A stretch of DNA of 64,000 nt from Lepraria neglecta (taxonomy: Eukaryota; Ascomycota; Lecanoromycetes; Lecanorales; Stereocaulaceae), in assembly GCA_033220425.1 (NCBI GenBank), contig CM065647.1:5146001-5210000 (forward strand). Reading direction: 5' to 3'. This document shows positions 3,604 to 62,554 of this stretch, piece after piece (position 1 is the first letter of the stretch; each line of letters begins with the position of its first letter). A model generated the notes under the pieces. That model was not told the DNA's origin, searched no databases, and saw only the letters and a list, made by a program, of their open reading frames with translations. The position numbers and the translations under genes are program-made.

Positions 3604-3739
3604 AGTCGCGGTGAAACTCGCTCTTCCTGAGGCGTCTTACCACGGTATATTCCTTCGATAATTGCAGTCTGAAATTCGTCTGTAACACGAAGTCTCCACG
3701 CGCCAGTCGGTTCTCGCTGCAGGGAACCCTTCCCTAAAC

Positions 3740-5168
3740 ATCTACTCTCTTAAGTCGAGGTCTTTTTTTTCGTCCGCGAGATCAAAGTCTCCGTTCTCCA
3801 AGTGCTTGGCAACATGATCCATGCGATCGGATAGAAAGGACATACGCTCCGTAATGGCGGCTCGCGCCCTTCAGCGCAACAGCGTATTGCAGCTCGCTCA
3901 ATGTCAGCTTCGAAGACTGCTGCCTCGCATGAGATCGTTTCATGTGCCGCGTGTAACTCTCTCTAGCGAGTTATTTCTTCATAGTGTCTTCAATGATGTT
4001 TAGTGTTGACGATCTCTGAGTTTTTCCTTTCGGGTTGCTGGGTCCACGATTCCGCGGGCCCACAGCCACATCATTGAACATGTCTGGGGTTCTGCCACAA
4101 GAGTCAAGATCGCATCTCCAAAGTACAAGATGCATATGGTTCAAACGCATGTGACGTTTCCAATCGAGTATGCTGGTCAGTAAAGCGTCGCACTCGTACT
4201 TGCGGAATACCCAGATAAACCGACGTGAAGGCCTTGCAGTAGCATTGTCTGTGACTAAGGTCTGAGTGGATGAAGATAAAGATTTGGCATTGGATAGTGA
4301 GTTGCTGTATGACAATAGGAAGCCCAATTCCTGTTCCGAATCTTCACTCGTGACTGTTTCCAGTAAGCCTTCAAATCTTTCGTCCTTGGCAACAGCTGCT
4401 GCTACTACTTTGGATAATACCCCTAGCGGTAGTTCAACAGCTCCCGGTGGCTGCTTAGGCCCCTCTCCTGTCCGAAGGGACAAATCCTCCTGGCTCAAGC
4501 GTTTCGTCACCCCAAAATCAGGTCCTAAGTCGGCAAGAATTTGAAAGTACATGCTCAGATTTCGTTGTTGTGCCTCTAGAGGCTGCTGTAAGAACCTTTG
4601 AAAGTCCTGATATATCTAGAGCGCTAGAGTTCTGCTCGGCGTGCATGCAAGCTTGCTCGATGATTGAAGGAGGGATTAGAGATTCATGTGTATTGCTGAA
4701 TCCAACGTCTCTCATGTTTTGAGGTTGAAAGTCTTCCGCGTCTTTGTCTTCCATCTCTCCTGCACCCTCGTCCTCTCCAATTGAAAGGCAGCCTCCGCCC
4801 GGTCTTGTCATCGACAAAGATTCAGTATTAGGGATTTCAAACTCATATCCTTCTAGTATCACCGATGAGGTAGTAGACACTCCCTAGTTCAATTCTGTTG
4901 GGTATCCGTGCCATTCCCGATCCACTCCTTCATCGTATCGTGATTTTGTTCTTTTGGTTGCCTCTACTTCTTCTCTATCTGCTATTAAACGGCCCTTTCT
5001 AGTCTTTTCCTTAGATTCCCCCACCGGGCTCCCATGCTTATATTTTTTGAGACGGAAACTCGCCGGGACTGGATTAAAGTCAGTCTTTGTACGGGGGGAC
5101 GCTAGTTGTGCATTGCGCAGCTTTCCATTGCTCTGCGCATTGGAGCATGAAAGACGGCAACCTAGCAC
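3740..5168 (-). pseudogene. C2H2 zinc-finger protein, decayed
   Basis: The reading starts near 5168 and runs leftward. A Ser-rich, acidic N-terminal region spans 4880-4551, and a plausible 61-bp intron covers 4490-4550. The central part contains the fungal block RFIWVFRKYECD...WKRHMRLNHMH followed by WRCDLDSC, a zinc-finger segment with Cys and His ligands. Further down are RHMKRSHA and, in another frame, SDRMDHVAKHLENGDFDL, which matches the last conserved H-x3-H finger of this fungal family. In-frame stops interrupt the reading near 4885 and 3970, and the frame changes near 3870. It is probably a dead DNA-binding or regulatory protein. An alternative is a poorly resolved multi-intron gene. 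Confidence 0.5.
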
Positions 5169-5828
5169 TGTTCCTCTGCTGACAATGCTGGACTAGAGAG
5201 GAGTAGATGGTTACGACCGAAGGAACTTCGCAGTGCAATTGAGCGTCCTTAGTCCAAATTGCAGGCGGCGAAGGTATGAACTTCCACTGCTCCTTTGCAA
5301 AAGATCGCCGTTCCAAGCGTTGATTTAAGAGCAAGCAATCTGGGAGGCCTAAGTAGGGGACTTATCTAGGGGCAATACATTCCCCTGCCGGTAAGGAATT
5401 GACCAATGAAATGCTAGTCTCTCCATGGACTCTCCAAAATCAGGCGTCGACATATTGCGTCCTGCAGCCGTAGGGTACCGCTAGCATGGCCTATGCCAAC
5501 ACGCCACAACCGCGCCAAGCTACAGCATAAGTGCATTCGCTTCTTTACAAAGCATCTCAGAGCTCGGTCAATTATCGAATGACGGGCCGAGCGAAGTCCG
5601 GGGGCTCGCCTTCATATCCGTCTCCGTGAACATCAATCAATGTCTTGCTATGTAATCAAAGCATTATCTAGACTTCCATCATTTGAATTCTATATAATGC
5701 TTCGCTATGTCGTGTATGAAACAGCCATCTTGAATATCCCATCGTCACCTCCCCACCTCCTCTTTCTGACCCCCTCACCATATCCATCCATCACAACAGC
5801 ACTCTAACCAACCAACACGCCCCCCAAA
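5169..5828. other. Intergenic region
   Basis: No gene is supported. The last 150 bases before 5829 are pyrimidine-rich (CT and CA stretches), as is common upstream of fungal start codons, and probably hold the promoter of the DUF1295 gene. Confidence 0.4.
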
Positions 5829-6701
5829 ATGGACAAAATGGCCACATCCGACGGCCTCGCCTCCCGCAAAAAGGGACCCTCCCCCTCGGCAAGTCCGTCT
5901 TCGTCGGTATGCGTGCCGCCGACGCACTCCTCCAATTCAGCATCCTCCAACGCGGCTGGGGCAGCACCCTGATCCAACGTCTCGGCGGCAGCGTCGTGCC
6001 CTTCGCCGCCCCTCGTGATCCCACGCTCGCATACTTGGGCCTAGGTCCATATCCTGCCATCATATCCGCTCTGGCGGTGGGCAGCAGCGTCAAACATATT
6101 GCGTGGACGATGGGCATAATGGAGCAGCAGATGAGCCCTGTAGCGGCCGCGGCTATAGGGTTGTTCAATACTACGCTTAATACGCTGAATACCCTCTTCT
6201 CACTCTGGGCTCTCACGTCGGCGGCGCCGCAGTTGGCTACGCAGTCGGCGAGCTTGAAGGATGTGGTCATGTCTTCGCCGATGCTTATGTTTGGTATTGG
6301 GCTCTACACCCTCGGCTTATGTACGGAGCTTGGTTCTGAGATACAACGCAAGATGTTTAAAGATAAGCCGGAGAATAAGGGGAAGCCGTATGGTGGAGGC
6401 TTGTTCGGATTGGCGACTAACATCAACTACGGTGGCTACACGCTGTGGCGCACTGGGTATGCCATTGCTGCAGCTGGACTACCATGGGGTGCTGTTATTG
6501 GGGGTTTTTTCTTCTACGACTTCACTACGAGAGCTATACCCTCTCTAGATCAATACTGTACTGAAAGAGTATGTTCTCCTGACATAAGCTGCCCCCTTGG
6601 CTGATTGATACGTACAAGCTAACCTGCCGATCTAGTATGGTGATTCGTGGACGGAAATCAAGAAACGGGTGCACTACCGACTTATACCGTTCATCTACTA
6701 A
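5829..6701 (+). CDS. DUF1295-family membrane protein (steroid reductase-like)
   Basis: This is a membrane protein of the DUF1295 group, related to the C-terminal domain of 3-oxo-5-alpha-steroid 4-dehydrogenases. The exons are 5909-6568 and 6636-6701, with a 67-bp intron (GTATGT donor, GCTAAC branch, TAG acceptor). The second exon ends in the family signature YGDSWTEIKKRVHYRLIPFIY. Several hydrophobic helices are visible (PAIISALAVGSS, SPVAAAAIGLF, GYAIAAAGLPWGAVIGGFFF). The ATG at 5829 begins MDKMATSDGLASRKKGPSP, which looks like a real N-terminus but is in a different frame. The downstream frame reads LGKSVFVGMRAADALLQF just before 5909. The break falls in a C-rich run at 5880-5890. So either translation starts at 5909 (241 residues), or there is a one-base indel or sequencing error. 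Confidence 0.8.
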
Positions 6702-7235
6702 GAATGGCGATTCAAGAGCTACTCCTTCAGACTGCCCTTTCTGCTCCCATACTACGTTGTCAAACGATGATTCTTAATATTCTCATTCTTTGTAATGCTA
6801 ATGAATAGTATATAGTCAAGGAGACTAGCATTTCCCTTTGTCTTTAGATTAATGTATCATAGCTAGAAAAATGCAACACTATTGCCAACCTGCCTAGCAC
6901 AACTCCAACATGACGTTGATTTAGCGCTAAATGAGCCACATGCTGGTCATTGCTGCTACATTTGAAGTCCAGTCTGGCGGTATCGTACACTGATTTGGAG
7001 CATTTCACGCTCAAAAAGTCTTCAAATGGTTGCCTTTGTCGCAGATGGCAGGTACAGAGCGTGGGTATCGAAAGTATCGACAATGAAACAACGCTGACGC
7101 CTTTGCTTGCGTTCCAGCCACCAGATGCGATGTGTACGCTATTGGCAGAAATACATGCGACTACCGTAACCAACTCTTCTCGAATTCATATTTGACGTCT
7201 TCAGGAAATTCAACCTCGCGACGTGCATATCCACA
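6702..7235. other. Intergenic region
   Basis: Terminator region of the preceding gene and promoter of the next. The short ORFs here show no family features. Confidence 0.4.
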
Positions 7236-8250
7236 ATGATCCCAGCCATCACTACCTCCTCCATCTACCTCTTCCTAGGCGCATTTCTCGCACAACTCAT
7301 CTCCCCCACAAATGCAGTAGATCCGACCAATGCGAGCAACAGCGGACATATAATAGCGTGCAGAGGAACTGAAGTCTGGACCGAACCATCTTGGCCGACT
7401 GATATCGAGCAGTATTGTCAAGAGGTCATTGAATATCTAGAAACTACTCAATGGGAAAAATATTCCAGAATCCGAGCCCGATGCACGACTTTTATCTGTA
7501 GGTCAGAAGCCGTGACGTCTTGCTTCAGATCCTGTCCGAACGCCCTGGAAACTTACTGCCGGTATGATATCTGTTTCTTGCTCGCTATGGCAGTTTCAGG
7601 ACTGAAATGGTTTTGTCTATCAGGCCCATGCACCTTGGCCGTAATGACACTGGCGGCAGTTCCCCTTGGATTATTACCAACGGAGGTCCCGCAAGGTCCC
7701 TACCCTCTATATGGCTATACTAATTGGCATAGTATCTGGGAGGGCGTAAGAGAGCTTCTCAGAAGTCTTGTTATTGAGAGAAATCAGGCCGGAATCATCG
7801 CACAAGGTTAGTTCAAATGCCTTGTCCCCATGGTTAGAAGTCTATGTGCACTGATCGGCGTCTCTAGAAGATTTAAGCGTACACGGATTGGGTCTCTTTC
7901 TTTATGCTACCGATTCGCAGATCGACAAGGCTATAGGACCAAAGGCCAATAATGTGTTGACTTGCCTGGAGTCAATGTCACGGATTCATATTCGCCAATC
8001 GTCTCCAATGCAGTTGCGCAACGAGATATACCCTGATATCGAGTACTGCGACTTATTGACTGGCGAGTGGTCCACTCACGGGTGGTCCACGCTGTTGCAA
8101 AAAGCGGCTGAGTGCGGTGACTTGGACCTGTCACGCACCATGGCTAACACAGGAGTGGCCTCAACGCCATCCTCTCGTGCCTTTCTCAGCTTTGTCATTC
8201 ACGCCCAACTTCCTTCAACCGTGCTACCCACTTCTCCGCCCACCCAGTAA
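7236..8250 (+). CDS. Secreted Cys-rich fungal protein of unknown function
   Basis: A clear signal peptide opens the protein (hydrophobic YLFLGAFLAQLISPTNA), followed by a Cys-rich segment with six or more cysteines (residues 40-115). A 62-bp intron probably spans 7562-7623. After it the reading RPMHLGRNDTGGSSPWIITNGG fits a conserved secreted family, whereas YGYTNWHSIWEGVREL, which should follow, is one frame away near 7690. A frameshift or an unresolved splice therefore lies there. A second intron at 7807-7867 (61 bp, GTTAGT donor) joins cleanly to LGLFLYATDSQIDKAI and LTCLESMSR...YPDIEYCDLLTGEWS. The last 56 bases overlap the convergent neighbour, so the 3' end is uncertain. No enzymatic motif is visible. 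Confidence 0.55.
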
Positions 8251-27596: not shown

Positions 27597-29712
27597 CCGG
27601 CTTACGTCATCTGGTGCACGGCCCCACCTGATGCACGATTTTGACATTTTCCACCATATCTTCCACCGTATACACCTCCACCAATATGAGCTCGATAGAT
27701 GCAGCCCTGGCCTTTATAGATAGCCTATCACCAGACGATCACATTAATATCACTAAGATAGCCAAGCAGTTCGAATGTGACCGTTCTACCCTATCGAAAC
27801 GATATCGCGGCAAAACTGGATCCCGCAATACCCAATATCAAAACCAACGAAATCTCAACAACCAATAAGAAAAATCCTTAGTAAAATATATCGATGGCTT
27901 ATGCGCGCGCGGCCTACCACCTAGTAAACATATGATTCGGAATTTCGCGCAGGAAATCTGCCATAAAGAGATAGGAAAAGAATGGGTTTCGCGCTTTCTA
28001 CACCGTCACCATGTTGAGCTGGTTTTAAAATGGACAATGGGCCTAGACCATAATCGTTCTCGCGCAGATTCGGCATTCAAATATACATTATATTTTGAGC
28101 TATTAAGGAAGAAAATCGAGCAGTATAGGGTAGAGCCGCAGTATATATACAATATGGATGAAAAAGGATTTTTGGTAGGAATACTTTCAAAGATGAAGCG
28201 AATTTTTTCCCGCAGGCGTTATAAAGAAGGATCGATCAAACAACTTATTCAGGATGGGAATCGCGAATGGATCACGACTATTGCAGCTATATGCGCGGAT
28301 GGATCAGCTCTATCACCAGGGCTTATCTATCAAGCAACTACAGGCCTCATCCAGGATTCATGGCTTCAGGATTTCGATCCAAACGCGCAAAGCTGTTTCT
28401 TCGCCTCATCGCCATCTGGTTGGACTAATAATAAGCTTGGATATCAATGGCTGACGCAAATATTCGACCGCGAAATAAAAGCTAAGGCGCAAAGATCTTG
28501 GAGGCTCCTAATCCTAGATGGCCATGGATCACATATTAGTATAAAGTTCATCGACTACTGCGATACCTATAGGATCCTATTGGCTATATATCCGCCACAT
28601 TCAACACATACGCTGCAGCCCCTAGATATCTGTTTGTTTCGGCCATTATCATAGGCATATTCAAACCAACTTGCGATATTTATAGATCAATGCCAGGGCT
28701 TTTCATCTATTACTAAACGGGATTTCTTTCGACTATTCTGGCAAGCCTGGAACACCTCATTTACCCCTGAAAATATCTATTCTAGATTCAAAGCAACTGG
28801 TCTACACCCCTTTGATCCTGAGCTTATTATCACCAAGTTCACCAAAAAGAATGATGATCGGTCTTCTTCTACCTCTTCTACCCGCTCAGTAATAGCTGCA
28901 GAAGATTGGAAACGCATTGGAAAGCTGCTATATAATATGGTTTCCAATATCTATGACAAAAAGGCGCAGCAGCTAAGCAACACGATGCATGCGCTATCCA
29001 TTGAGAATATGCTACTAAAACAATAAAACGATGGCCTTAAACAAAGCCTAGTCAACGAAAAGAAGCGTCGAAAGCGTGGCAAGCCGTTATTACTAGATTT
29101 TCCTACTCAGGAAAATGGTGGAGTAATGTTCTATTTACCTACTAAGGTCCAGTATACGCGCGACCAACAAGCTCAAAAAGATGCCAATATAACAGCTCAA
29201 CATCATCAAAAAGAGCTTAATAGGGTTCGTAAGGAAGCCGAAAAGGTGGAAAGAGCTCAAAAAGTTGAGGAACGAAAAGCTATCAGGGCAAATATGAGGG
29301 AATTGAAATTGCGCAAACTAGCTGAAAAATAGTAACAAAAAGATAAGGCTATACAAGCTAAGCAAGCTAGTAAGTAGCTTTATAGTAAGCTTATAATAAG
29401 AGCTAAGAAGGTTTAAAAGCCTATCCAAGCTCAAAAACAAAGCGATCCTAGGGGTAATAGAGATTTGGTGGTGGTAGAAGATACGGAAGATCCCCCACCC
29501 CTGAATACTCGTGGAAGGCAAATTCGTCTTCCTAAGCGATATCAACCAACTATGTGATAGCCTGATAGATGCGCCTAATCCTATAGACCATCCTATCAAA
29601 AAATTAGATATATTAGATATATATGTAGGCGTAGATAGCTTCAAAACTAAAGGTGGTGGTGGAGCCAAAATCGTGCATCAGGTGAGGCCGTGCATCAGGT
29701 GACGTAAGCCGG
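27597..29712 (+). mobile_element. Fot1/pogo-type DNA transposon, 2116 bp, both ends present
   Basis: Inverted repeats of 47 bp border the element (27597-27643 and 29666-29712). They differ at only three positions, all transitions. Each begins CCGGCTTACGTCA and contains the sequence CACCTGATGCACG or a close variant twice. A TA dinucleotide flanks both ends (27595-27596 and 29713-29714), the target duplication of Tc1/pogo elements. The interior carries one broken transposase. Good TIR identity implies a relatively recent insertion, later inactivated. Confidence 0.92.
27686..29557 (+). pseudogene. Fot1/pogo transposase with in-frame stops
   Basis: A single reading frame of about 620 codons spans 27686-29557. 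The N-terminus holds the HTH (ALAFIDSLSPDDHINITKIA...DRSTLSKRYRG) and a second DNA-binding part (FAQEICHKEIGKEWVSRFLHRHH). The DDE core shows the first Asp in YIYNMDEKGF, the second in LLILDGHGSHIS and the third in HTLQPLDICLFRPLS. The C-terminus is a Lys/Glu-rich coiled coil. The frame is broken by about seven stop codons (for example after NLNNQ, after FRPLS and after MLLKQ). The first two are explained by CAA-to-TAA or CAG-to-TAG changes, consistent with RIP-like C-to-T mutation. Confidence 0.88.
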
Positions 29713-29931
29713 TAAGGCTTAGCGTGGTTGTATTAGGCATAGTGCCCTTCCGTCGATCACGGGCACGACGTCAACCAAGTTTCACGTTCTGCTGACTTTA
29801 GCGGAGAACCATTTATCCAATTGTGATGCTTACTTCCTCTATCTTATTTCAACACCAGTGGCTCCACGGCGTTATCAGTACAACTGGTCACGTTAGGGGG
29901 ATCTTATTTGTGCCGGAGCGGGTCTGTCACC

Positions 29932-32900
29932 ATGTCTTCGACAGTGTCCACCTCTGTTTCGAACATCGTAACGTCTAGCAACAGCGAGGGCGTGAACCAA
30001 GACTTGTGGGAGCAAGCTTTGAATACTCTAAGCCCTGAGGATCGAAAACAATACGAGGGTTGTTTACATGGCATGCTTGACATTTTGAAGAACGTATGTA
30101 ATAGCTTTCCCATAACACCAGCCTACATTGACTCCGTACCAAACGATATACAAGTCTAGCTTGCTGACACATGGTCTGTCAATAAGGTCCAGGAAGCCAT
30201 AGAGAGCAAGAAAGAATATTGTGTCTCAAACGGCTGGAGATGTTATCGCAACAAGCACAATGAAGAGGTCAAGCTCCGGCACGTCCTTGAGAAGATCTCT
30301 ATATGGGTCAGAGAAATCATCAAGGTCATCGATGTGGGGGTCTCGTTGGACCAGAGCGGCCACGCAGCTTTGCCATGGGCAATTATGAAGTACCTTACCA
30401 CGGTAGGGAAATAAGTCAGAAATCTCAGAACTTGCTGATACTACGGAGCGTAGATCGGGTTTTCAGACATTAATCTGTTCAGCAATGTTGCAGAAGGCGT
30501 CGAATCCGTTTCTGGCCTCATTGCGCGATACACGATCATCGAAAAGCTTTACTGGCACGAAGACTGCGAGGCGACACCGGGACTTCACGAGGCTATCAAA
30601 AAGCTCTATGCAGCGATATTGACTTACCTGGCAAGAGTCAAGTCTTACTTTGCCGGAAACAGTTGGAGTATGTGCTTACCCGTCGTCCAAGAGCGTATCA
30701 ATCTACCAGATATGGAGAATATTTCGCTGATTTACACCCTCCAGAGCGTATTGGTCGAAGCTTGGTCGAGGCGATGCGTAACCAACATGACGAGTTGTGG
30801 GCCAAGATCTCGGAGACTGAGGTCGAGAAATGGAGTAAATTGGTTGACGTGCAGCGTAAGCGTGTCCTCTTATCAGTCGCGTCAGGTTTGACTTACCCTG
30901 TGACAGTTCATCGGAAGATGGGAGAGGATACCACTGGATATTATCAAAATCTCAAGGACACCTTGCTTGAACTCAATAAGCCTATCGTGCAGATGGGCGA
31001 TCAGATATCCGTTATCCAAGATAAGTTTAATAGTAAGTTTACTTCAATTTCATATTTGACTCGGTAATGCTCAATTCTTGCCAGGAGAAGAGCGGAAGAA
31101 AATATTCCGATGGATGTCCGAGATCGAGTATAGAAGCCATCATGATGATCTCTCAAAAGACTTGCTACCTCAGTCCGGCCAGTGGTTGCTCGAGAGCCAG
31201 GAATTTATTGAATGGGGACAGTCGAGCGTGTCCTCTATACTCTGGCTCCATGGCATTCGTAAGTGGCATCCCTACTGGAGAATCTACATGTGACTAACCT
31301 AAGCGCAGCTGGTTCAGGGAAGACCAGACTTATGTAAGTTTTTCGTTACTTAAAGCTCGAAATGCTTAAGACTCCTCGGAGACAGATCGCGATATTGCAA
31401 TTGCAGTTCACAACGCCACCCATGCTGACGCGAGGTACCAAATCAGATCAACGGTCATCAACGTCATGCTCAATCTAAACCCAACTTCACGTATGTCTCC
31501 AACCGCGTTCTTTTACTGCGCAAGGAGCACTGCGGAGCCAGAACGCGCCAAGCCAATTGAGATCATGGGTGCCCTACTTAGACAGCTTGCCAGTTCAAAG
31601 CCAGATCTGCCCGTCAAAGAACCCGTGGCGAAAGAATATGAAATCCGTAAGAAAAAGGCTGACGAGGATTGTTCCGCGCTTAAGAGATTGACAGTAGAGG
31701 ACTGTACCAGGCTCATTATTGAAATTACCAAAGATACTCCGGTAACAATCGTCATTGACGCTCTTGATGAATGTAAGGAAAATATACGTTACGAGCTTCT
31801 AGAAGCATTGGACAATATAATCAGTCAATCTGTAAAGATTGTGAAAGTCTTTGTCTCCAGTCGCGAAGATATTGATCTCGTGAGTACCCTACACTGGGTG
31901 GCATTCGGGGGCTCCGACTGATAGACAAAAACGGATGCGTATGCATTTGAGCTCAGGTACATCTGCTGATCAGTTCTGATTATCTAGAGACTGCGTCTGG
32001 AAGGTTCCAAAAATATTTCCATCAGCGCGGAGAACAACGGTGGCGATATCGCGCGTTTTATCGAATCAGAGGTAGATCGTTTGATTTCCAAGCGACTTCT
32101 TCTAGACGGCAAGATAACCCGGAAGTCTAGAGTTAAGATTGTCAAGACTCTCACAAACGGGGCTCAGGGGATGTTTCGGTGGGTTACTATGTCGCTGGAG
32201 ACTCTACAGGGGATCAAACACCAACCAGGTTTCATGAAAGCCCTCGGTCTCCTCCCTTCGGAGCTCTCTGGCCTGTACGACATCATCCACACGCAGATTG
32301 ATCAAACTGAACCTTATGGACGGGATGTAGCTATCAAGACGTTGAAATGGCTGCTATGTGCCCGGCGTTTGTTGTCTGTACAGGAGCTCATTGCGGCTAT
32401 TCCTGTGGTTTACGAAGTCGAGGACGAGTCATCTTCGGACTCGGACGAAGGTGATGAGTCGAGGAGTGAACAAAAGCCGTCGCCAGAACAGGATATCATC
32501 CGACTTTGCCGTAATCTTGTTGTCATGGACTCGGAGCAAAGAGTTTTCCGCTTTGCGCACCAGTCTGTTCAAGAATACCTCCTAGGGCGGCAAGAATATG
32601 AAGAAAAGGAACAACATGCCCTTGCTACGGAACGATGCCTAGATGTATACCTGGCTGAATTGTCGCCGGGCTCCATTACGCCAAAGGTGGTAGAGCAGAA
32701 CCATTTTCTTAAACTCTACGCACAAGTCTACTGGCCCGTACATTACAAGTACGTTGAGGACTATAAGTCCGATGAATTGAGGAGAAAAGTATTGCGTTTC
32801 ACTGGGCAAGGCTCAAAGACATCCCTATCATATGAGAAGTGGGCGTCAGATATAAGCTCGAAATATAAGAATGGCGGCGGATGGAGCCTAAATGAGTCAC

Positions 32901-35900
32901 TGGGACTTGACTTTGGTGATCGTCTGGGCCATAGACTATCCTTCGCATCATCCGCACCTCGGAGACATCTCAGTGCAGCGTGTGCTTTTGGATTTCTATC
33001 ATTTATGAAGGCCTGTGAGCTGTCCTCGACGGACTTGAATCAACGCCAATTATTGGACGACGCTGAGTACACATTGCTACACATCGCTGCAGAAGAAGGC
33101 AAGGACCAAGTGGTGCGGATGCTGCTCGACAAGAGAGCCGATGTCAACGCTCAAGGTGGATACTATGGTAATGCACTGCAGGCGGCGTCAGCTGGAGGTC
33201 ACGATCGAGTAGTGCAGATACTGCTCGACAAGGGAGCCGATATCAACGCTCAAGGTGGATGGTATGGCAATGCATTGCAGGCGGCGTCATTGGGAGGTCA
33301 CGACCAAGTAGTGCAGATACTGCTCGACAAGGGAGTCGACGTCAACGCTCAAGGTGGACACTATGGTAATGCACTGCAGGCGGCGTTATTGCGAGGTCAC
33401 GATCAAGTAGTGCAGATACTGCTCGACAAAGGAGCCGATATCAACGCTCAAGGTGGATGGTATGGCAATGCATTGCAGGCGGCGTCATTGGGAGGTCACG
33501 ACCAAGTAGTGCAGATACTGCTCGACAAGGGAGTCGACGTCAACGCTCAAGGTGGACACTATGGTAATGCACTGCAGGCGGCGTTATTGGGAGGTCACGA
33601 TCAAGTAGTGCAGATACTGCTCGACAAAGGAGCCGATATCAACGCTCAAGGTGGATTGTATGGCAATGCATTGCAGGCGGCGTCATTGGGAGGTCACGAC
33701 CAAGTAGTGCAGATACTGCTCGACAAGGGAGTCGACGTCAACGCTCAAGGTGGACACCTTGGTAATGCACTGCAGGCGGCGTTATTGGGAGGTCACGATC
33801 AAGTAGTGCAGATACTGCTCGACAAAGGAGCCGATATCAACGCTCAAGGTGGACTCTTTGGTAATGCACTACAGGCGGCGTCAGCTGGAGGTCACGATCA
33901 AGTAATACAGATACTGCTCGACAAGGGAGCCGATATCAACGCTCAAGGTGGATTGTATGGCAATGCATTGCAGGCGGCGTCAGCTGAAGGTCACGATCAA
34001 GTAGTACAGATACTGCTCGACAAAGGAGCCGACGTCAACGCTCAAGGTAGACTCTTTCCTAATATACCGCAGGCGGCGTCAGCTGGAGGTCACGCTCAAG
34101 GTGGATACCATGGTAATGCACTGCAGGCGGCGTTATTGGGAGGTCACGATCAAGTAGTGCAGATACTGCTCGACAAAGGAGCCGACGTCAACGCTCAAGG
34201 TGGACACTATGGTAATACACTGCAGGCGGCGTCAGCTGGAGGTCACGATCGAGTAGTGCAGATACTGCTCGACAAGGGAGTCGACGTCAACGCTCAAGGT
34301 GGACACCTTGGTAATGCACTGCAGGCGGCGTCATTGGGAGGTCACGATCAAGTAGTGCAGATACTGCTCGACAAGGGAGTCGACGTCAACGCTCAAGGTG
34401 GATGGTATGGCAATGCATTGCAGGCGGCGTCATTGGGAGGTCACGACCAAGTAGTGCAGATACTGCTCGACAAGGGAGCCGATATCAACGCTCAAGGTGG
34501 ATGGTATGGCAATGCACTGCAGGCGGCGTCATTGGGAGGTCACGACCAAGTAGTGCAGATACTGCTCGACAAGGGAGCCGATATCAACGCTCAAGGTGGA
34601 TTGTATGGCAATGCATTGCAGGCGGCGTCATTGGGAGGTCACGACCAACTAGTGCAGATACTGCTCGACAAGGGAGTCGACGTCAACGCTCAAGGTGGAC
34701 ACTATGGTAATGCACTGCAGGCGGCGTCAGCTGGAGGTCACGACCAACTAGTGCAGATACTGCTCGACAAGGGAGCCGATATCAACGCTCAAGGTGGATT
34801 GTATGGCAATGCATTGCAGGCGGCGTCAGCTGGAGGTCACGATCGAGTAGTGCAGATACTGCTCGACAAGGGAGTCGACGTCAACGCTCAAGGTGGACAC
34901 TATGGTAATGCACTGCAGGCGGCGTCAGCTGGAGGTCACGATCAAGTAATACAGATACTGCTCGACAAGGGAGCCGACGTCAACGCTCAAGGTGGACACT
35001 ATGGTAATACACTGCAGGCGGCGTCATTGGGAGGTCACGATCAAGTAATGCAGATACTGCTCGACAAGGGAGTCGACGTCAACGCTCAAGGTGGACACTA
35101 TGGTAATGCATTGCAGGCGGCGTCATTGGGAGGTCACGACCAAGTAGTGCAGATACTGCTCGACAAGGGAGCCGATATCAACGCTCAAGGTGGATTGTAT
35201 GGCAATGCATTGCAGGCGGCGTCAGCTGAAGGTCACGATCAAGTAGTACAGATACTGCTCGACAAGGGAGTCGACGTCAACGCTCAAGGTGGACACTATG
35301 GTAATACACTGCAGGCGGCGTCATTGGGAGGTCACGACCAAGTAGTGCAGATACTGCTCGACAAGGGAGCCGATATCAACGCTCAAGGTGGATTGTATGG
35401 CAATGCATTGCAGGCGGCGTCAGCTGGAGGTCACGATCGAGTAGTGCAGATACTGCTCGATAAGGGAGTCGACGTCAACGCTCAAGGTGGACACTATGGT
35501 AATGCACTGCAGGCGGCGTCAGCTGGAGGTCACGATCAAGTAATACAGATACTGCTCGACAAGGGAGCCGACGTCAACGCTCAAGGTGGACACTATGGTA
35601 ATACACTGCAGGCGGCGTCATTGGGAGGTCACGACCAAGTAGTGCAGATACTGCTCGACAAGGGAGTCGACGTCAACGCTCAAGGTGGACACTATGGTAA
35701 TGCACTGCAGGCGGCGTCAGCTGGAGGTCACGATCAAGTAATACAGATACTGCTCGACAAGGGAGCCGACGTCAACGCTCAAGGTGGACACTATGGTAAT
35801 ACACTGCAGGCGGCGTCATTGGGAGGTCACGATCAAGTAGTACAGATACTACTCGATAAAGGGGCTGACGTCAACGCTCAAGGTGGATACTATGGTAACG

Positions 35901-37414
35901 CTCTGCAGGCGGCGTCATCCGAAGGTCATGATCCAATAGTACAGATACTGCTCGATAAAGGGGCTGATATCAACGCTCAAGGTGGACACTATGGCAACGC
36001 TCTGCAGGCGGCGTCACACGGAGGTTATGATCGAATAGTACAGAAACTACTCGATGGAGGGGCTGATATCAACGCTCAAGGTGGAACCTATGGCAACGCT
36101 CTATAGGCGGCGTCATCCGAAGGTTATGATCAAGTAGTACAGAAACTACTCGATAAAGGGGCTGATATCAACGCTCAAGGTGGAACCTATGGCAACGCTC
36201 TACAGGCGGCGTCATTCCGAGGTTATAATCAAGTAGTACAGATACTACTCGATAAAGGGGCTGATATCAACGCTCAAGGTGGAACCTATGGCAACGCTCT
36301 ACAGGCGGCGTCATTCCGAGGTTATAATCAAGTAGTACAGATACTAATCGATAAAGGGGCTGATATCAACGCTCAAGGTGGACAGTATGGTAACGCTCTG
36401 CACGCGGCGTCATCCGAAGGTCATGATCGAATAGTGCAGATACTGCTCGAAAAAGGGGCTGATATCAACGCTCAAGGTGGAACCTATGGCAACGCTCTGC
36501 AGGCGGCGTCATCCAATGGTCATGATCGAATAGTGCAGATACTGCTCGGAAAAGGGGCTCATACCAACGCTCAAGGTGGACGCTATGGCAACGCTCTACA
36601 GGCGGCGTCATCCGAAGGTCATGATTGAATAGTGCAGATACTGCTCGAGTCATTCGAAGGTCATGATCAAGTAGTACAGATACTGCTCGCCAAAGGGGCT
36701 GATATCAACCAGAAGGATCTGCATGGTAGAAATGCGCTTCATCTCGCCTCTGCCAGAGGACATAAAGCTATTGTTGAAACATTCTTCAGGCTTGCATCCG
36801 ATCCGAGTATCACCGATATACAAGGACGAAATTGTCTCCATTTTGCAGCGTCCAAGGGTTCTACTGAATTGGTCCGTTGGCTTCTGAGGGAGGGCTTTGA
36901 CCCCAATCTGACTGATCGGGATGGCTGGACTCCCATGCATTGGGCTGCCAGGGGTGGATCCATTGACACTATCCGTGTCTTGAAAGATGAAGGTGCTGTA
37001 TCAAGCATTGAGGCGATCAACTGGTGGAACCCACGTTCAGTTACAGTATATCACCATAAAGAATCCTCGGCGATTCCAACCACCACTGCCACTTGCGGCA
37101 CCCTCCAGTCTGGGCCGGCATTGATACCGACTTTCAGCAGTTCAAACCTTGAAGTAGATTCAACAAGCGAGGGGAATAAGATCAGCCCTGGTGTTTTTCA
37201 AAGAGTTTACTGCGATGGCTTCTTCTTAGTAAGTTAGAAATCGGATGTGCTGTCATCTGATTTTAGCAGGAAATCTACGGCCCACGATATCGATGTCTGA
37301 GCTGTAAAGATTTTGACTACTGCTTCAAATGCAAGCATTCTTCAGATTTCACCCATCTAGGTCATAAATTTGAGGGAATAAAATCAAGATCAGAATGGCC
37401 TGGTACCCTTTGAA
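29932..37414 (+). CDS. NLR-type protein: NACHT_N - NACHT - ~36 ankyrin repeats - ZZ finger, late in-frame stops
   Basis: This is a fungal NOD-like receptor. The ATG at 29932 opens a NACHT-NTPase N-terminal domain (LEKISIWVREIIKVIDVG, GHAALPWAIMKYL, LIARYTIIEKLYW). A 51-bp intron at 30403-30453 is clean. The splice near 30660-30700 is unresolved. Further introns fit at 31033-31084, 31259-31308, 31334-31446, 31880-31987 and 37229-37269. NACHT shows Walker A (GIPGSGKT, assembled across an intron near 31259-31325), Walker B (VTIVIDALDEC, about 31740-31773) and VFVSSRED. A winged-helix-like part ends in FRFAHQSVQEYL (32547-32582). From 33061 come about 36 ankyrin units, then diverged ankyrins (36710-37000) and a ZZ-type zinc finger (CDGFF...YRCLSCKDFDYCFKCKH...LGHKFE). 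In-frame TAG and TGA codons at 36104 and 36626 lie in the array. An early TAG at 30157 can be removed by a 51-bp intron. The first long product ends at 36106. Confidence 0.85.
33061..36650 (+). repeat. 99-bp tandem array encoding near-identical ankyrin units (~36 copies)
   Basis: The period is 99 bases (33 residues), with consensus GGHDQVVQILLDKGADINAQ followed by GG-x-YGNALQAAS. Most variation is confined to a few codons: the residue after the GG pair (W, H, L, Y, T, Q, R), Val or Ile in D(V/I)NAQ, the pair after QAA (SL, SA, LL, SE, SF), and the residue after GHD or GYD (Q, R, P). Neighbouring units also form higher-order blocks: three units near 34780-35080 recur near 35380-35640. One unit near 34080-34110 carries a large internal deletion. 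Units 3' of 35850 are more diverged (YNQ, TYGN). Confidence 0.93.
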
Positions 37415-38017
37415 CTGACAGTACTGGACTTGTTAGACTTTTCTCTTTGCTGCAACGAGTATACTAACCCCAATAATGCCTCAGCAATGGTATATAGCTC
37501 ATGAATTTACAGCAATACAAGTCACGAGCACAGCAATACCATTGGACTCAGGACTAGCATCGTATCGAGAAGATGGAACGCGTATTTTAAGACTCGAAGT
37601 GCTCTTAGACCCACGCCACTTTGCGGATCTGAGCCACCTTTCTGAGGAGCAGCCCAACAATCTGAGGAGGGACTGGAGATAGTGGCGATGAAGAAATGGG
37701 ATCTTATACCTAAGGCAGGCTAGTGATGGATATTGGAGCGAAAGAACACCCCATGATAGTTGTAGAAGCCAATAGATCGGTTGTTTGGCGCCGCCATGTG
37801 TACAAATTCACTAATTCCTGGCTAGAACTTGCAAGAAGAGCGGGGAACGTACTGAGAGGGAGTTTGACCAGGGAGGGGCTTTGGAGATTTTCTTCAACAT
37901 CATGCAGACTCCGCACTTTTAATTTAAGCCTTGCAGCTTGACCTGAACTTCGTCACAACACCGTCAAGGAGCACGTTCCAAGTATTGTCGCACAGCATCA
38001 TACTCCATTTCTTTGCC
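37415..38017. other. Intergenic region downstream of the NLR
   Basis: No supported gene. Short ORFs only. It probably contains the NLR terminator and the promoter of the next gene. Confidence 0.4.
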
Positions 38018-55229: not shown

Positions 55230-57960
55230 TCATCCAAGTTTACTCTTCTTCCTAACAGGCCCCGCCATTTCCCAGATACTTCTCCGAATATATCCCACAC
55301 CCACCCGATACGTGACACCGTTCTCCCATTCAATCAGCATGACATTGTACTATGGCTCCATTAGGATCTTGTTCTTGGTCAATGCGGTGATATTGATGCT
55401 CGTCCAGATGGACATCAGAATGAACTCGCACCCGTTATCTAGGAAGTCCTGAGCTTCGGCCCATGCATCGAACTAGATCTCATAGAAGATATCTGGAGAG
55501 TGTTGTTCAGCGATTGGGGAGGGCAGTATGATGCAGAATCTCTTATTCTGGTATTCTATCCCTATAAGGTCGTCGTCGGATTTGCCATCCTTGTCTACGT
55601 CGTTAGTTTCCTAGGAGTCCTCGGACTCGGCAGTCTCTTCTTTTTCAGCGGATGACTCATCATACTTAGGGTCATTGATTAGTTCTGCTGGAACTGGGTA
55701 TATTTTAAATCTGGCGGAGGAGGTTTCGAAATGCAAGAATTGCGTGAATTGAGCGCGAGGGCTGTTGACGCGAGTGGGTTGATCGAGGCTTGGCGGTGTA
55801 GAACTCGGCCGAGTCTGTTCCTACTTTAGCTGGATCGCTCTGGCTCTAGACTTCGGATTGATTGTCTTCCTTGCTATAGCCCTCGCTGTCGATATCAATG
55901 GCAGGAGCCGTTCTCAAAATACCCGAAGACTTGCTTCCTGTCAGATCGGGCTCGTCAGGCTTCGGGTTATTTACCCTCATCCATTTTGCGACCTCTGCTG
56001 TTGCTTCGCGGAGAGCCTTTTCCGTGTTATGTCCAAACTTCGACAGTGAGCCTCGTTTGTATTCTCTATGATAGTCATGTACAGGCAAAGTATGATCTTT
56101 TTGACCAGGGTAACCGCCAGCCCCGGTCTCGCGGTCAACCGTGACAGTGCCAACGTCTAGAAAAGAAGCCCAGGACCAAGTTAGGAACGGTGAACGCTTC
56201 CTCTTCTTTCCGAAAATCTTGCTTTCAGCCCTCTATAACAAGGTGGCGTCGAAGGCCCGTTCAGGCAAACCCCGGAAGAAGTCAGTATCATGTAGGTCCT
56301 TCATACTATTGACAATGCCAGTGAAAGCATTGAGCGTATCGCTTTCATAACTCAGCCACCGATGTGAATAACTCACGACAAGGTCGTTATGAATAATTTG
56401 GTCGAACAAACGTTGTCGCAGCTCTGGTGTTTGTGAATTGTCCTCGCTCTTTCTTCTTCCAGGTAAGTGAGACATCGGCGAGCTCAGGAACGACGGCCCT
56501 GGTGTGGACTTCGTCCAAATCCTTTGGTCCTTTTCCGCCTCTGCTATGCTTTCACAGAAAAAGTCTGCAGAGCATTTCCAGAACACCTGCGTCTTTGTAT
56601 ATATCAAGCATTTCGGAGACAGTAAGCCCTCCTGCATTGTCCATCCTCGCGATGCCCAATCTCCTCCATGCTCGAGCTCTTCCCCAAGCCAAGGTTGTGA
56701 TTTGAAGATTCGCTGACCATTTACCATCTCTTAGTACTGCCGCTTTGGATCCCTTGAGCCAGGTTGAACACCAGACAACCCTGTATTGGCTTCTTCTCCG
56801 TAGCCAGCAACGATTGTAAGTACCGCCTTTCCGTAGACTCTACCCATGTTTGATATCTCAGAAAGCTTCTCTTCGAGATCGTCTTGGACAATATAATACG
56901 CGCCGATCCAGATGTAGGCCTCGCCTAGCTCCGTTATAACAACAAAAGTATCCTCGATCGTCTGGGGTAAATTCGCTGATAATTTCACAGAAAATGGCAT
57001 AGCATCGTCAGAAGACTTCACATCCGCGAGATTCGTCCAGTAAAGCCCTTCTGTCACTCTTGGCGGACTATAGGTATAGCTCAATGCGAGATATCTGACC
57101 GCGGGAGGAGCCATGATGACAATGCGTTTGCGAACATTGATAACCCGGAAACGAGGTGTGACTACAACTCCAGCGTCAGGATTGTGAGAATAATTAGGAA
57201 AGGTGTGGTCTTCTTGACAGAACTCGATCCATTCTCTTATCAGCCCGAAATCAACCTGCCACGCAGGCATTGCGCGACCGCTGTAGAAGGGCTTTGCGGG
57301 TCCTTCATCGATTTGCACGACACCTGCGGGACATAGCTGAGCGTTTGATACGTCTTGCAAGAGATTTTTTCGGCGTGAAGCGCGAGAGCCGCTCTCCATT
57401 TGGAGCTATACATCTATATACCATGTAGTGGGGCCGCCATATTGGTCTCTGAAATCTGGGAGCTCATCCGCCCTGAACGATGCCAGTTTGATTCGAGGAG
57501 ATTACTCAACATCCCCTGACTCGAGTTCAAAGGGCTCAGATCTCGTACAGGACACAGAGAACAGTCTCATGATCAGTCGACAGCATTGGCAGTGTTGTTT
57601 TTCATCGATATCCTGCGCGAAGCCAAGGTCAATCGTTGGGCTGGTAATCTCTGGTTCCATAAAGCTATCATCTTCTCCACTAGGATCCTCCTCACTAACA
57701 CTATCATCCTCTCGGAGTTCTGCAAGTGGCGCCGCAATATTTGGTGGAGATACTGTCAATTTGTGGCAAGGGTCTCGGTCTTCTTCTCCCACCAGGTTCT
57801 GATTCTTGATGATCCCATACTTGAAGATTGAAGCAATTCTTCGGCAAATATTGCATAGAATACCAGTCTTTTCGTGGATCGATGGCTTATCAACGCGGTA
57901 ACCTTCGGTTCTGCCGCTGGAATCTGTAGCGGTGAAGTCCCAGTGAAGCTTCGGTATGAT
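55230..57960 (-). pseudogene. HET-domain (heterokaryon incompatibility) protein, heavily interrupted
   Basis: HET proteins trigger cell death on non-self recognition in fungi. The minus strand reads almost entirely in one frame from about 57960 to 55860. The N-terminal CNICRRI block comes first. The HET domain follows (YLALSYTYSPP, LPQTIEDTFVVITELGEAYI, WIGAYYIVQDD, NMGRVYGKAVLTIVAGYGEE, GLSGVQPGSR), then WASRGWTMQEGLLSPKCLIY and SYSHRWLSYESDTLNAFTGI, then FLTWSWAS. After a frame change near 55750 it ends with VMLIEWENGVTYRVGVGYI and RKKSKLG, the usual C-terminus of this family. About eight stop codons interrupt it, most of them TAG, some at places where the family has Trp. It is non-functional unless transcripts are edited. 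Confidence 0.8.
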
Positions 57961-59762
57961 ATTTTAGAGAAGGCTTCTGTATAGGCTGACCGGCGAGTAT
58001 GAAAATGGAGACATAGAGGATTCTGACGCGAAGAGTCTGAAGTATCGCTGATGACCCTTCAGCAACCCAAAAAGACCTGGAAGTTGAGATGTGTAAAAGG
58101 AACGACATAGCATTTTTGGGCAAGGTTTAAGATTTTGCAAGAGCTGAAGGGCTGCGCAGTATGATCTTTAGCGCGTTCACTTTAGCCCCTTCGCCTTGAA
58201 CGGACTGAAAGTATTCTTTTAGGGTGTACGGTGTGTAAAACAAAGATAGACTTGTCCATCCATAAAGGGAGTCGATTTGTAAATGGACAACTCCATGGAT
58301 CGGGAACTCCTCCAAGCAGTAGTCATGCCCGAATTAAAGAAGTTCATTCGTGTAGGACCAAACCTGACTCCCGCTTGTTAGTTGGGAGACTTCGAGAGAC
58401 ACGTTTCCTTTACAAAAACATGTATCTCTTCCGACAAGCTTATGAACAGAAGCCAGTGAGCACGGATAATCGTTGTTTGGTGTTGAATCACAGCCGCTCT
58501 GGCCCTGGGTCCAGTGCTGTCATGGCTTTCAATGCATCAAAGCTCGTCATCTATACTATATTATAGACGTCTAAACATGGGGCCCCGACAGCAGAAAATC
58601 AATTCGGCGCCCACAGTAACTGTGTGGATAGCGGCCGTATGACTGCTCTACCTGACAATTACAGACGTGGCTACATCTCCTTATGAGCTCCTTGAGAGGG
58701 CTGCGCGAATCCTTCCCGCCAGAAGCCGCATGTCCGCTGTACGTCTTCTTTGGACAGATATATGGACAACCTGCTTCACAGACTTCCTGACAGCTCTCTT
58801 CTAGATATTATCCAATAACCTACTAGGCGCCGCATCGTGCCGCCACGCCATCCTTTTTTCAGACGGCTTCTGTTTCAATTACCTTAAAGTCCTCCCAGAG
58901 AGGAAATGTCCGAAAGAGCCGCGGCGCCCCATGTTGGATTGTTTCATATTCGCAGAACTTAGTGAAGTGTCTTCCCAACCTCATTCTTGTTTATTCTCGA
59001 CTATCATTTAGGGTCACCAACATTGTGTTTCACCCTCCCTCCCACACTTAGAAGGGTTTTAGCCAATAAGAGCTTCAACAATATCTTTCACTGACACATT
59101 CGTTTCAATTTTGCTACGTGCCATACTCTGCCTCTTCGTTGAGAATCCTCGCGCTTACAGAGTACCAAGTCCTTCAATGCGAACTTAAACTTTCCGGTCT
59201 TCCCTACATCCTAGATTGATCAAGACCCCCACTGGGCTTAGAGCCTCAGCGTTATTGCGTATTGCTGAGGTCTAGCTTGTTGGAAGAGATTTTTTACAGT
59301 GTTTCCATCCGTTGCGTTGATGGCACTCTCCAAAGTCCTGGACGATCAAGCTCCCTCCAAGCTCATACCTCCATTATACCTAGCTGGCACTTCTAAGCAC
59401 ATAGCTGTACCTTCCGGAGGCATTATGCCAACTCGTTGCTTTGATGGCGCCACTCGACCCCTGAAAGGATCAATATCCTTTCTCAGTCGAATTTCGCCTC
59501 ATGCGTTAATCGGCCTTTTGTCCCCTAAGTAGATGGCTGTCTGTTTCAAAGCACTAAGCGTTATGTCACATATCACCTATTGCCAACAGCAGTGCCTCAT
59601 CCAGATACATCAGGCAACATAAAAGCCCTTCTCTGCCCACTCTTTTGCAAAATAAGCATTCTACGTTGCATCAATAGCATCATAACTATGTTTCCTTGAA
59701 TTGAACATCACCATCCTACATACATACTGCTGGCCAGGCTTTACGCCAACCCACCTTCAATC
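57961..59762. other. Intergenic region, 1.8 kb
   Basis: A short reading at about 58762 (MDNLLHRLPDSSLLDII) resembles an F-box start and then stops; it may be a relic. Nothing else is recognised. The last 150 bases should hold the promoter of the secreted nuclease gene. Confidence 0.4.
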
Positions 59763-62554
59763 ATGAAGAAGGTCTTTGTCTCGTTACTTATAGCATGCCT
59801 TTTGAAATCTTCAGCAGCATTACCACAAGCTGGAACTTCGACTTCAGTCTTATTGGCTTCGATTTCTTCGAGTCCCGTTTCTTCGACTCCTAGTTCTACG
59901 AATTCGATCGTGGCTTTTGATCCGGCTTCCGACCCTGCGTCCCAAGCGGCGCCAGCGCTGTCCCAGAGTTCACCTTCAACATCTTCGACTTCTATATCTT
60001 CGACCCTCGTTTCTTCGGCTTCTAGTTCTTCGAGTTCGATTGTGGCTTTCAATCCGGATAGCGCTAATGATGATGAAGAACTTGGCAACGCGTCAAATGA
60101 GATGCACTGTACGTTGTTCTCACCACCACAGCCAGGCCCCTACACGGGGTGCGAGAACGTCTGTGGTGAGGTATTCGCCCAGCAAGTGGCAGCCGGCCAA
60201 ACTGCTTCAATAAGTTGTATCGCTTTCCAGAATCCGATTGTGTGGCAACGGTTTGACAGTATGTAACAGCCCTCATTGTTCCACTTAAGCATCGCAGCAC
60301 GAATCTTACCGGCTCATACTTTAAGGCTCTCTGTAATACAGCTGACTGTTTTAACTGACTTCTTTTATCAGGCATCAGCAATGTTACTCAAGGCAACTGC
60401 TCGTGCAACAATTCATTCCTAGACGAGTTGGCAGACACGTACATAAAAGCAATCACAGCGGCCGCAGAGGTATTTTCAAGTTGGTCATTCACATTTCTGT
60501 CACTTACACATTGCGAACAAGATCGGATGCAATATCCTCATGTCAGCGGTCAAATTGGTTGTCGTCGCTGGGTCTGCGGCAATTCCAGGAGCAGGCGAGG
60601 CTATCGATGGCGGGATGAGTAAGTCAGATCAGACTGGATTGAAGACCCGCGAATCAACGTAGATATTAACTTCTAGTAGTTGGAGGGATGGAAGCCGCTC
60701 AGTTAGCCTCATATGCCTACGACTCAAGTACCGCAGCGCTAGGCGCGTTCACAAACTGGTTGAACCCATGTGGAGATACTTCTGCCCTTCCCCCAGACAT
60801 GCAAGCAGTTTTCAACGCCTTCAATATGGTTGGTCCTGGTAGACTGCCGGGTGGACAGCTCAAAATCCCCCCGGGCCTCGTAAAGGGTAGCGGCAGGCCT
60901 GGCGATGCCGGCGATCCAAATCCACCAAAGGAGCCAAGTCCACCACAGGATCCAAATCCACCAAAGGGAAACAAACCACCACCGACAGAGAAGCCGACGC
61001 TGACTGACAAGACAGCACCCACTGATAAGTCAACGCCGACTGACAAGCCCACGTCGACCGACAAGCCCACGTCGACCGACAAGCCCACGTCGACCGACAA
61101 ACCCACGTCGACCGACAAGCCCACGTCGACCGACAAGCCAACGTCCACAGAAAGCCCACAGTCTTCGAGTGACAGGGCATGTTCCCTCGGGAAGCGTGCG
61201 CCTGGCGGGAAAAACAGTAAGTCTACTCCCCAGACACTCCGTAGAGCTTCCCATGCTTGGTGAGCAATAATGGCTAATGTGCCTCTGAGTAGATTGCGGT
61301 GTCTCCATCACCACGGCCAAAAAGTCAGACGCGGTTACCAAGTTGATACAAAGGACGTGCAAAGCCACATCTCACACCCAAGCCTGCTATCATTATTACT
61401 CGGCGATTCAAAACTATGACAACATCAAAAGCACGTTTACGTGCAGCGATTTGAACGGCCTTAACCCTGCAAATGGGAAACCAGCGAGACCAGACCTGGA
61501 TGCCACTGCGTTCTGGAAATCGCAACATACTTCTGAGGGCTGGTGGGATTACACTCAACCACTCTACAATTTCAAAAACGATCCTAAGTCTAGGAAGTCG
61601 CCTCGTTGCGAGGCAGACGAATACCCCCCAGCATACTTCTTGGCAGAGGACACGAACGATGTGCAGTTCGGTCAACTTATCAGATGGATTCCCGGCAGCG
61701 AGAACGGAGGTGCGGCAAGTATGTGGACAAGATTTTGCGCCAATAATGACGGTGGAAATGGCAATTTTCAGACCTACACCAAAGACGACGAAGGAAAAAA
61801 ACATAGGAAAGGTTCAATCAACACGGAATTGGTCACAGGTGTAGGCCAAGCGCTCAGTGAAGGGGAGCACGAAGGAGAGGACGGGACGATGACCACAACC
61901 TTCACGTATGACAACGCTAAGTTCACACGAGCAGTCTTCGAAATGAAGTTCGATTGGGCGGGCGTGGACCCACCCTCCGCGCCCGATTGGGGTCTCAAGG
62001 CCAACCCGTGTTGGCCCCAAGGCATCGTTCCTGATGACCCTGGCTATGTGCTGTTGACAGAAGATAAATGGTACAACAACCCACCTAACCCCGACTACCG
62101 AAAGTCCTACTCAGAACCTCCACCGGTGGGTCTTGCGAAGGAGGCGAAAATACCAACCGGAGCCAAACGGCCTGGGTCCCCTAGCAACAACAACCCGAAC
62201 CCCCCCAAGCAAGCCAACACAGGCCCAGGAGGCCACAAGAGAGCTCTCGATATCATCGAAGATGGATTCATAATCCGCGACGTAAATTTAACACGCAGGC
62301 TCACAGGCAAGGAGATGGAGCAAAATGTCGAAGTTCTTGACTGTGCAGACCGTACATGTTCCAACGAGCGCAGGGCTTTGGGCGAGGACGAGGACTTCAT
62401 TGTCATTCCTGGAGTGGGCCCGCAAATGACGCCTCCTACAGGTGTTGACAGCGTTCCTACCAGTGTTGTTAGAGCCACGACTCTAGAAACCAAGGTCGAA
62501 ACGCGGAAAGCGATCTCCCCTGAGCTCCCGGCGCCAACTGTCGCGACATCCTGA
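59763..62554 (+). CDS. Large secreted protein with NucA/NucB-like nuclease core
   Basis: Five exons join in frame: 59763-60258, 60372-60469, 60522-60618, 60677-61216 and 61293-62554 (830 residues). A signal peptide opens it (KKVFVSLLIACLLKSSAA), followed by a Ser/Thr-rich, probably O-glycosylated stretch (residues 20-110). A Cys-rich part (HCTLFSPPQPGPYTGCENVC, GNCSCNNSFLDELADTY) leads to an Ala/Gly-rich hydrophobic segment (LVVVAGSAAIPGAGEAI). A Pro-rich linker with TDKPTS repeats follows. The C-terminal half has CRCEADEYPPAYFLAE-like RCEADEYPPA and RWIPGSENGGAASMW, matching the DEYP and EN motifs of NucA/NucB deoxyribonucleases. KR pairs (GKRAPGG, HKRALD) could be Kex2 sites. The gene looks whole. 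Activity is inferred only. Confidence 0.75.
61021..61148 (+). repeat. 18-bp minisatellite encoding TDKPTS units
   Basis: Seven units of an 18-base repeat (core ACGTCGACCGACAAGCCC) lie inside the linker of the secreted nuclease-like gene. The central copies are nearly identical, so copy number may vary between strains. Confidence 0.9.

Follow-up and report, generated by a model that had tools for sequence, protein, structure and literature searches.

A 64,000-nucleotide stretch of the genome of the ascomycete Lepraria neglecta (CM065647.1:5146001-5210000, in a 42.0-Mb genome of 11 contigs; hereafter the window, whose own positions are used throughout) carries, on its + strand, a NOD-like receptor (NLR) gene in which a NACHT domain, an array of nearly identical ankyrin repeats and a ZZ zinc finger follow one another. 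We conclude that this gene is probably a decayed NLR, now a pseudogene or null allele, in a class that retains an intact-looking member at another locus (L019), and that the ZZ finger of the class was probably integrated as a copy of ZZ3, the third ZZ of the selective-autophagy receptor NBR1. The window gene itself is of a fungal NLR kind that is not unusual, and it has decayed in the strain, or in the assembly, at hand. The point of interest is the class, in which an NBR1-like ZZ cassette is found on NLRs with unrelated NACHT halves.

The decay can be read in the array and in the finger behind it. The array has 36 units, mostly of 99 bp, at 33155..36700; 34 of them encode 33 amino acids, unit 10 (34046-34099) is shortened to 18 and unit 36 is irregular. 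A partial unit copy, divergent ankyrins, a linker and the ZZ follow. Two stops, a TAG in unit 31 (36104..36106) and a TGA in unit 36 (36626..36628), break the frame that a working protein-coding gene would keep open from its start to the ZZ, and the predicted product of the gene as it stands is 1885 amino acids long and lacks the ZZ. Among 34 other units compared, the first site is CAG in 33 and CAC in one, and the second is CAA in 26, CGA in seven (units 34 and 35 included) and CCA in one, with CGA also in L019. Splicing offers little relief: no GTRNGT donor was found in 33100-36720, and the in-frame GT-AG pairs of 45-150 bases that span the two stops (12 and 17, respectively) include none with a GTRNG donor.

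Further damage lies in the ZZ itself. Its first half (37208..37228) is separated from its second half and stop (37270..37413) by a phase-0 intron at 37229..37269, which, like every intron reported here, was inferred from GT-AG splice signals and the reading frame. The second half matches PF00569 at 3e-7 (30.6 bits against a cut-off of 21.4). Codon 37220-37222 is TTC (Phe) in the window and Cys in L019 and in a second paralogue, L014 (CDGF versus CDGC); the window thus lacks a complete zinc-binding Cys/His set, whereas the first CxxC is complete in both paralogues. Within the C-terminal cassette that the gene has in common with L019 (the last divergent ankyrins, linker, ZZ and 3' end, 36700..37490), L014 as outgroup assigned 37 of 70 differing columns to the window lineage and 22 to L019, leaving 11 undecided; gaps were counted singly, and 13 of the 70 columns lie at alignment ends. 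The changes on the window lineage include the G to T at 37221, three bases lost before it, nine intron bases lost, and a net deletion of 10 bases after the ZZ that alters the last residues. Because of the array stops, the lack of a strong donor and the lost Cys, the window copy would be unable to make the working NACHT-ankyrin-ZZ receptor that an earlier note on this DNA had described. A pseudogene or a null allele is the most likely status of this copy.

That the gene was once an NLR is clear from its 5' half. The start at 29932 was confirmed, and seven introns (30094-30159, 30403-30453, 30668-30744, 31033-31084, 31259-31308, 31334-31446 and 31880-31987) give an open N-terminal part of 902 amino acids. 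This set was picked, by its Walker A, from 24 splice combinations that left the part open, and L014 can be spliced at all seven places. A TAG at 30157 was considered as a nonsense mutation and rejected, as it terminates the first of these introns, which L014 has as well. On the spliced part, Pfam matched NPHP3_N (2e-35), DUF7708 (3e-9) and GPIID_WHD (4e-6); NACHT (1e-5) fell just below its cut-off and NACHT_N (0.003) below it. The effector side, of DUF7708/weak NACHT_N type, occupies 29932..31032 (exons 29932-30093, 30160-30402, 30454-30667 and 30745-31032). The NACHT (NPHP3_N) P-loop domain occupies 31085..31879 (exons 31085-31258, 31309-31333 and 31447-31879), with a Walker A, GIPGSGKT, that spans intron 31259-31308 and a Walker B, VIDALDE, at about 31739-31777. 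A winged helix (GPIID_WHD) and a linker that includes the first ankyrin repeat (31988..33154) complete the half. The gene therefore has the P-loop with both Walker motifs, the winged helix and the repeats, in that order, of a fungal NLR of the STAND NACHT-ankyrin kind. The earlier note had been right about most parts: the Walker motifs, an N-terminal NACHT-associated domain (as DUF7708, with NACHT_N below its cut-off), some 36 near-identical ankyrin units and a ZZ finger at the gene end were all recovered.

Translation that stops in unit 31 could in principle still yield a working NACHT-ankyrin NLR of 1885 amino acids without a ZZ, like other NLRs that end in their repeats. With the chosen splicing the frame has no stop ahead of unit 31, the Walker motifs are intact, and dN/dS (the ratio of nonsynonymous to synonymous divergence) to L014 is about 0.28 over 900 N-terminal codons. 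The stop lies 1122 nucleotides upstream of the last inferred splice junction, however, and transcripts with a stop far upstream of the last junction are expected to undergo nonsense-mediated decay. Together with the second stop and the ZZ damage, which indicate that constraint was lost downstream, this makes a working truncated receptor unlikely.

The class does not depend on the window gene. Twelve other loci with matching units (13 stretches) were fetched from among the best 150 of 671 candidates, and three of these loci (L014, L019 and L021) have an array followed by the same ZZ tail; ZZ searches gave no match in the stretches of the other nine. In L019 a frame of 1505 amino acids is open from inside NACHT_N, across 18 or more ankyrin units and into the first ZZ half, with plausible upstream exons, and its ZZ is intact. 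The NACHT-ankyrin-ZZ layout, which the earlier note had put forward as possibly little described, is thus real elsewhere in the genome, and the idea that the ZZ belongs to a separate gene was rejected for the class, L019 being open from its NACHT into the first ZZ half. L030 and L032 are further NLR-ZZ loci with the same ZZ type, damaged or weakly resolved, and in L033 and L034 a NACHT-ankyrin gene is followed by a ZZ of another type that has no intron, for a total of eight NLR loci with a ZZ, of two types. A ZZ profile search gave 15 matches, 14 of them above the cut-off and four of the 15 in NBR1, and missed L021; in an NPHP3_N search the best 150 of 197 candidates were scored, some genes being counted twice. 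In L034, positions 2449-7575 hold a long near-identical ankyrin array (unit GANLSTASNNGWTPLNSAC...) split over several frames; the last frame carries the second-type ZZ, and the adjoining frame resembles PNP/NB-ARC NLR genes by eye.

The ZZ of the NLRs looks as if it had been borrowed from the third ZZ of NBR1. A gene on C1 is assigned to NBR1 because it matches PF16158 (N_BRCA1_IG) at 5e-34, and it carries several ZZs. Sixteen ZZs, all from this one genome and including the five in the profile, were compared. A hidden Markov model built from those five NLR ZZs scored NBR1 ZZ3 at 56.0 bits, L032 at 30.1 and the best other non-NLR ZZ (L035) at 20.4; with NBR1 ZZ3 as the query, six same-type NLR ZZs came first (26.5-48.1 bits), followed by L035 (25.9). 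The phase-0 intron, which falls two codons after CxGC (CDGF in the window), occupies exactly the same position in the window gene, L014, L019, L021 and NBR1 ZZ3; in L030 it is one base off, and in L032 the donor is exact and the acceptor ambiguous. None of the nine other ZZs compared has an intron exactly there: NBR1 ZZ2 has an apparent one a base away and in a different phase, the intron of L036 lies at another place, and the remaining seven are uninterrupted. At the acidic ZZ residues, whose positions we assume from sequestosome-1, an Asn stands at one Asp site in L019, L014 and L030, and a His at the other in L021.

The two halves of the window gene have different closest relatives. Alignments to L014 cover 29927-34176 and 35527-37506. 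A tree of the NACHT part (nine rows) joined the window gene to L014 with 100/100 support and rejected its grouping with L019 in the approximately unbiased (AU) test (p-AU 7e-52), whereas a tree of the tail (five rows) joined it to L019 at 93/97 and rejected L014 (p-AU 0.028). Synonymous divergence (dS) from the window gene in the tail coding sequence is 0.045 to L019 and 0.416 to L014, and in the N-terminal half it is 0.575, 0.430 and 0.590 to L014, by segment. Over 36700-37490 the window matches L019 at 759 of 791 aligned bases (96.0%) and L014 at 619 of 791; identity to L019 is 98% up to 37200, 93% in the ZZ part and 91% past the stop, and array unit pairs between the two genes average 81%. 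The alignments to L019 and to L014 both stop near 37510. By these comparisons, the NACHT half of the window gene belongs with L014, that of L019 being unrelated, and the array-end/ZZ cassette was exchanged recently between the window gene and L019. Such a mosaic would be the expected trace of ectopic gene conversion between two genes with a common tail. Transfer from the window lineage to L019 is the simpler, if unproven, reading, because the window gene has a similar dS to L014 in its two halves.

Several observations weigh against our account of a decayed NLR with an NBR1-derived finger. The stops are known from one assembly, in which they may be errors or specific to the strain, and all introns are inferred. 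An open class member is established only for L019, because exon 4 of L014 contains a TAA, close to what may be an additional donor. The tail-tree grouping of the window gene with L019 was not starred. The reverse search separated L032 from L035 by a slight margin (26.5 versus 25.9 bits), and the ZZ tree, of 45 columns, was unresolved: the NLR ZZs and NBR1 ZZ3 formed an open 84/94 group that also includes L032, and long branches were flagged. Finally, two of the five closest NLR ZZs (those of the window gene and L021) have lost a zinc Cys, a loss that fits decay as well as use as a decoy.

The shortness of the domain and the lack of resolution in this tree leave some room for the ZZ to be an ordinary ligand-binding finger taken from a ZZ protein other than NBR1, an origin that would be compatible with the decay of the window gene; the best matches among solved structures are indeed the ZZ domains of HERC2 and sequestosome-1. 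Against this stand the 36 bits that separate NBR1 ZZ3 from the best-scoring other non-NLR ZZ and the identical position and phase of the intron, and we consider such an origin improbable. Errors of assembly or base calling in an otherwise intact array are an unlikely explanation of the stops. Long near-identical arrays are difficult to assemble, and a probable misassembly has been described in one (PMC12222747), but both stops are single-base C to T changes (the second relative to its CGA neighbors and L019) rather than indels, independent damage lies outside the array in the lost Cys and the net 10-base deletion, and the same study reports two stops within a single repeat of one strain, both supported by reads (PMC12222747). 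Recoding of the stops into a full-length protein, for example by the A-to-I mRNA editing known in filamentous ascomycetes, is scarcely credible: the UAG does follow a U (position -1), and its A closes the loop of a predicted hairpin (z-score -1.7), a context that such editing is reported to prefer (PMC11156358), but editing would place Trp where 34 other units have Gln (33) or His (1), the UGA has a G before its A and no such hairpin, and the ZZ Cys would still be missing.

Repeat-induced point mutation (RIP) was also considered as the cause of the stops and is unsupported: although the changes are C to T, the window array has a TpA/ApT index of 0.82 and a second index of 1.16. In the arrays of L014 and L019 the first index is 0.95 and 0.94 and the second 1.19 and 1.07; by the usual thresholds, their first index would count as RIP-like. 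Separately, NACHT matches at C9:21517-22029 and C5:48427-48927 contain many TAG and TAA stops (4+2 and 7+4) and no TGA, the pattern that RIP would give, although introns may also account for these stops.

The array evolves as the repeats of fungal NLRs are known to do: its units are homogenised within genes and vary at three positions. The 34 full units average 87% identity in DNA and 84% in protein, and units 1-28 without unit 10 (27 full units) average 91% and 88%. Highly conserved repeats have been defined by more than 85% repeat identity over at least 100 amino acids (PMC4986451); by our own measure, which is not that of the paper, units 1-28 exceed this value (88%) but the full set does not (84%). 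In a comparison of 195 units that fit a strict pattern at 11 loci, 34 of them from the window gene, 191 had their closest match within their own gene. The three most variable positions include position 3 in all eight genes tested and position 13 in seven of them; position 14 ranks within the top four in seven of the eight. The raw ratio of nonsynonymous to synonymous differences (pN/pS) at these three positions, which were picked after viewing the window gene, is at least 1.3 in all eight genes (infinite in L014) and 0.27-0.49 elsewhere. These results support the earlier note's view of near-identical, diversifying repeats. By the ankyrin consensus, positions 3, 13 and 14 presumably fall in the first helix and the hairpin loop, on the putative binding face, a region in which sites under selection have been located in ankyrin NLRs (PMC4986451). 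The unit family also occurs at L015, where 2387-5695 (-) holds at least 23 units, 82% identical to those of the window, in an ankyrin frame without a NACHT match.

In an intact member of the class, the array would form a fast-changing recognition face. Binding of a putative ligand by the array and the ZZ may open the NACHT module, which would then oligomerise and so allow a defence or cell-death response to be set off by the N-terminal domain. The ZZ may serve as a sensor of, or a bait for, a factor that contacts NBR1. NBR1 was probably the donor of the finger and not its recipient. We tentatively extend this to the possibility, which we hold with some doubt, that fungal NLRs guard NBR1, with ZZ3 as a putative decoy and recombination moving the array-end/ZZ cassette between receptor chassis. 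Under this extension the cassette would pass between chassis, because unrelated receptors have the same ankyrin units and tail. An integrated-decoy NLR would be expected to sense, through its copy, a pathogen factor aimed at the source protein.

Comparable receptors have been described. In Sordariales, zinc fingers were reported in 57 NLRs, 17 of them ZZ, with 16 treble-clef fingers beside canonical repeats (PMC12258605, PLoS Genet 2025), so that the earlier note's layout, real as it is, had already been reported, and an NLR with a ZZ beside repeats is not new. The likeness is close, as those too are NACHT NLRs with a treble-clef finger, mostly ZZ, beside canonical repeats, and the fingers were suggested to be sensors or decoys (PMC12258605). 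In the part of that paper available to us, no source gene is given for the zinc fingers, in contrast to a kinase domain, which is traced to CHK-2 (PMC12258605); unlike that report, we propose NBR1 as the source and describe eight NLR-ZZ loci with two ZZ types in one genome. The NWD/HNWD genes of Podospora anserina (het-d, het-e and het-r) likewise have near-identical repeats, concerted evolution and hypervariable surface positions (PMC4986451, PMC2873952, PMC12222747), as well as exchange of repeats between loci and alleles with stops in the repeats (PMC2873952, PMC12222747). They differ in having WD40 rather than ankyrin repeats and, in part of the family, a HET N-terminus, and the exchange described there concerns repeats, whereas that between the window gene and L019 also covers the non-repeat ZZ tail. 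NBR1 itself supplies the closest non-NLR ZZ compared in the genome, with the same inferred intron, but has PF16158 and several ZZs, and those pieces of it that were searched matched neither NACHT nor ankyrin. Cargo binding by the ZZs of fungal Nbr1 is reported; in C. thermophilum, Nbr1 binds Ape1 by way of its ZZ domains (PMC9233695). In the open-licence literature searched, none of the titles and abstract starts listed reports an NBR1-derived domain in an NLR.

Three other features of the window were recorded. A stop-broken relic of a Tc5/pogo-type transposase lies at 27869-29332 (+), with DDE_1 (5e-18) and HTH_Tnp_Tc5 (2e-9) both on 27869-28651 and no match in those later frames that were searched; some 600 bases separate its end from the NLR start downstream. 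A HET-domain (heterokaryon incompatibility) gene is represented by pieces at 56233-57963 (-), about 19 kb downstream of the NLR, with PF06985 at 2e-17 on 56731-57402. Tandem 18/36-bp repeats at 60913-61159 encode a Pro/Thr-rich stretch of a predicted protein.

The window gene thus presents a receptor that appears to be dying while its C-terminal cassette lives on in another receptor, whose NACHT half is unrelated. For the family, the comparison proposes a named source for the ZZ found at the ends of fungal NLRs. If true, an NBR1 source would tie selective autophagy to self/non-self recognition in fungi and open the decoy idea to direct tests.

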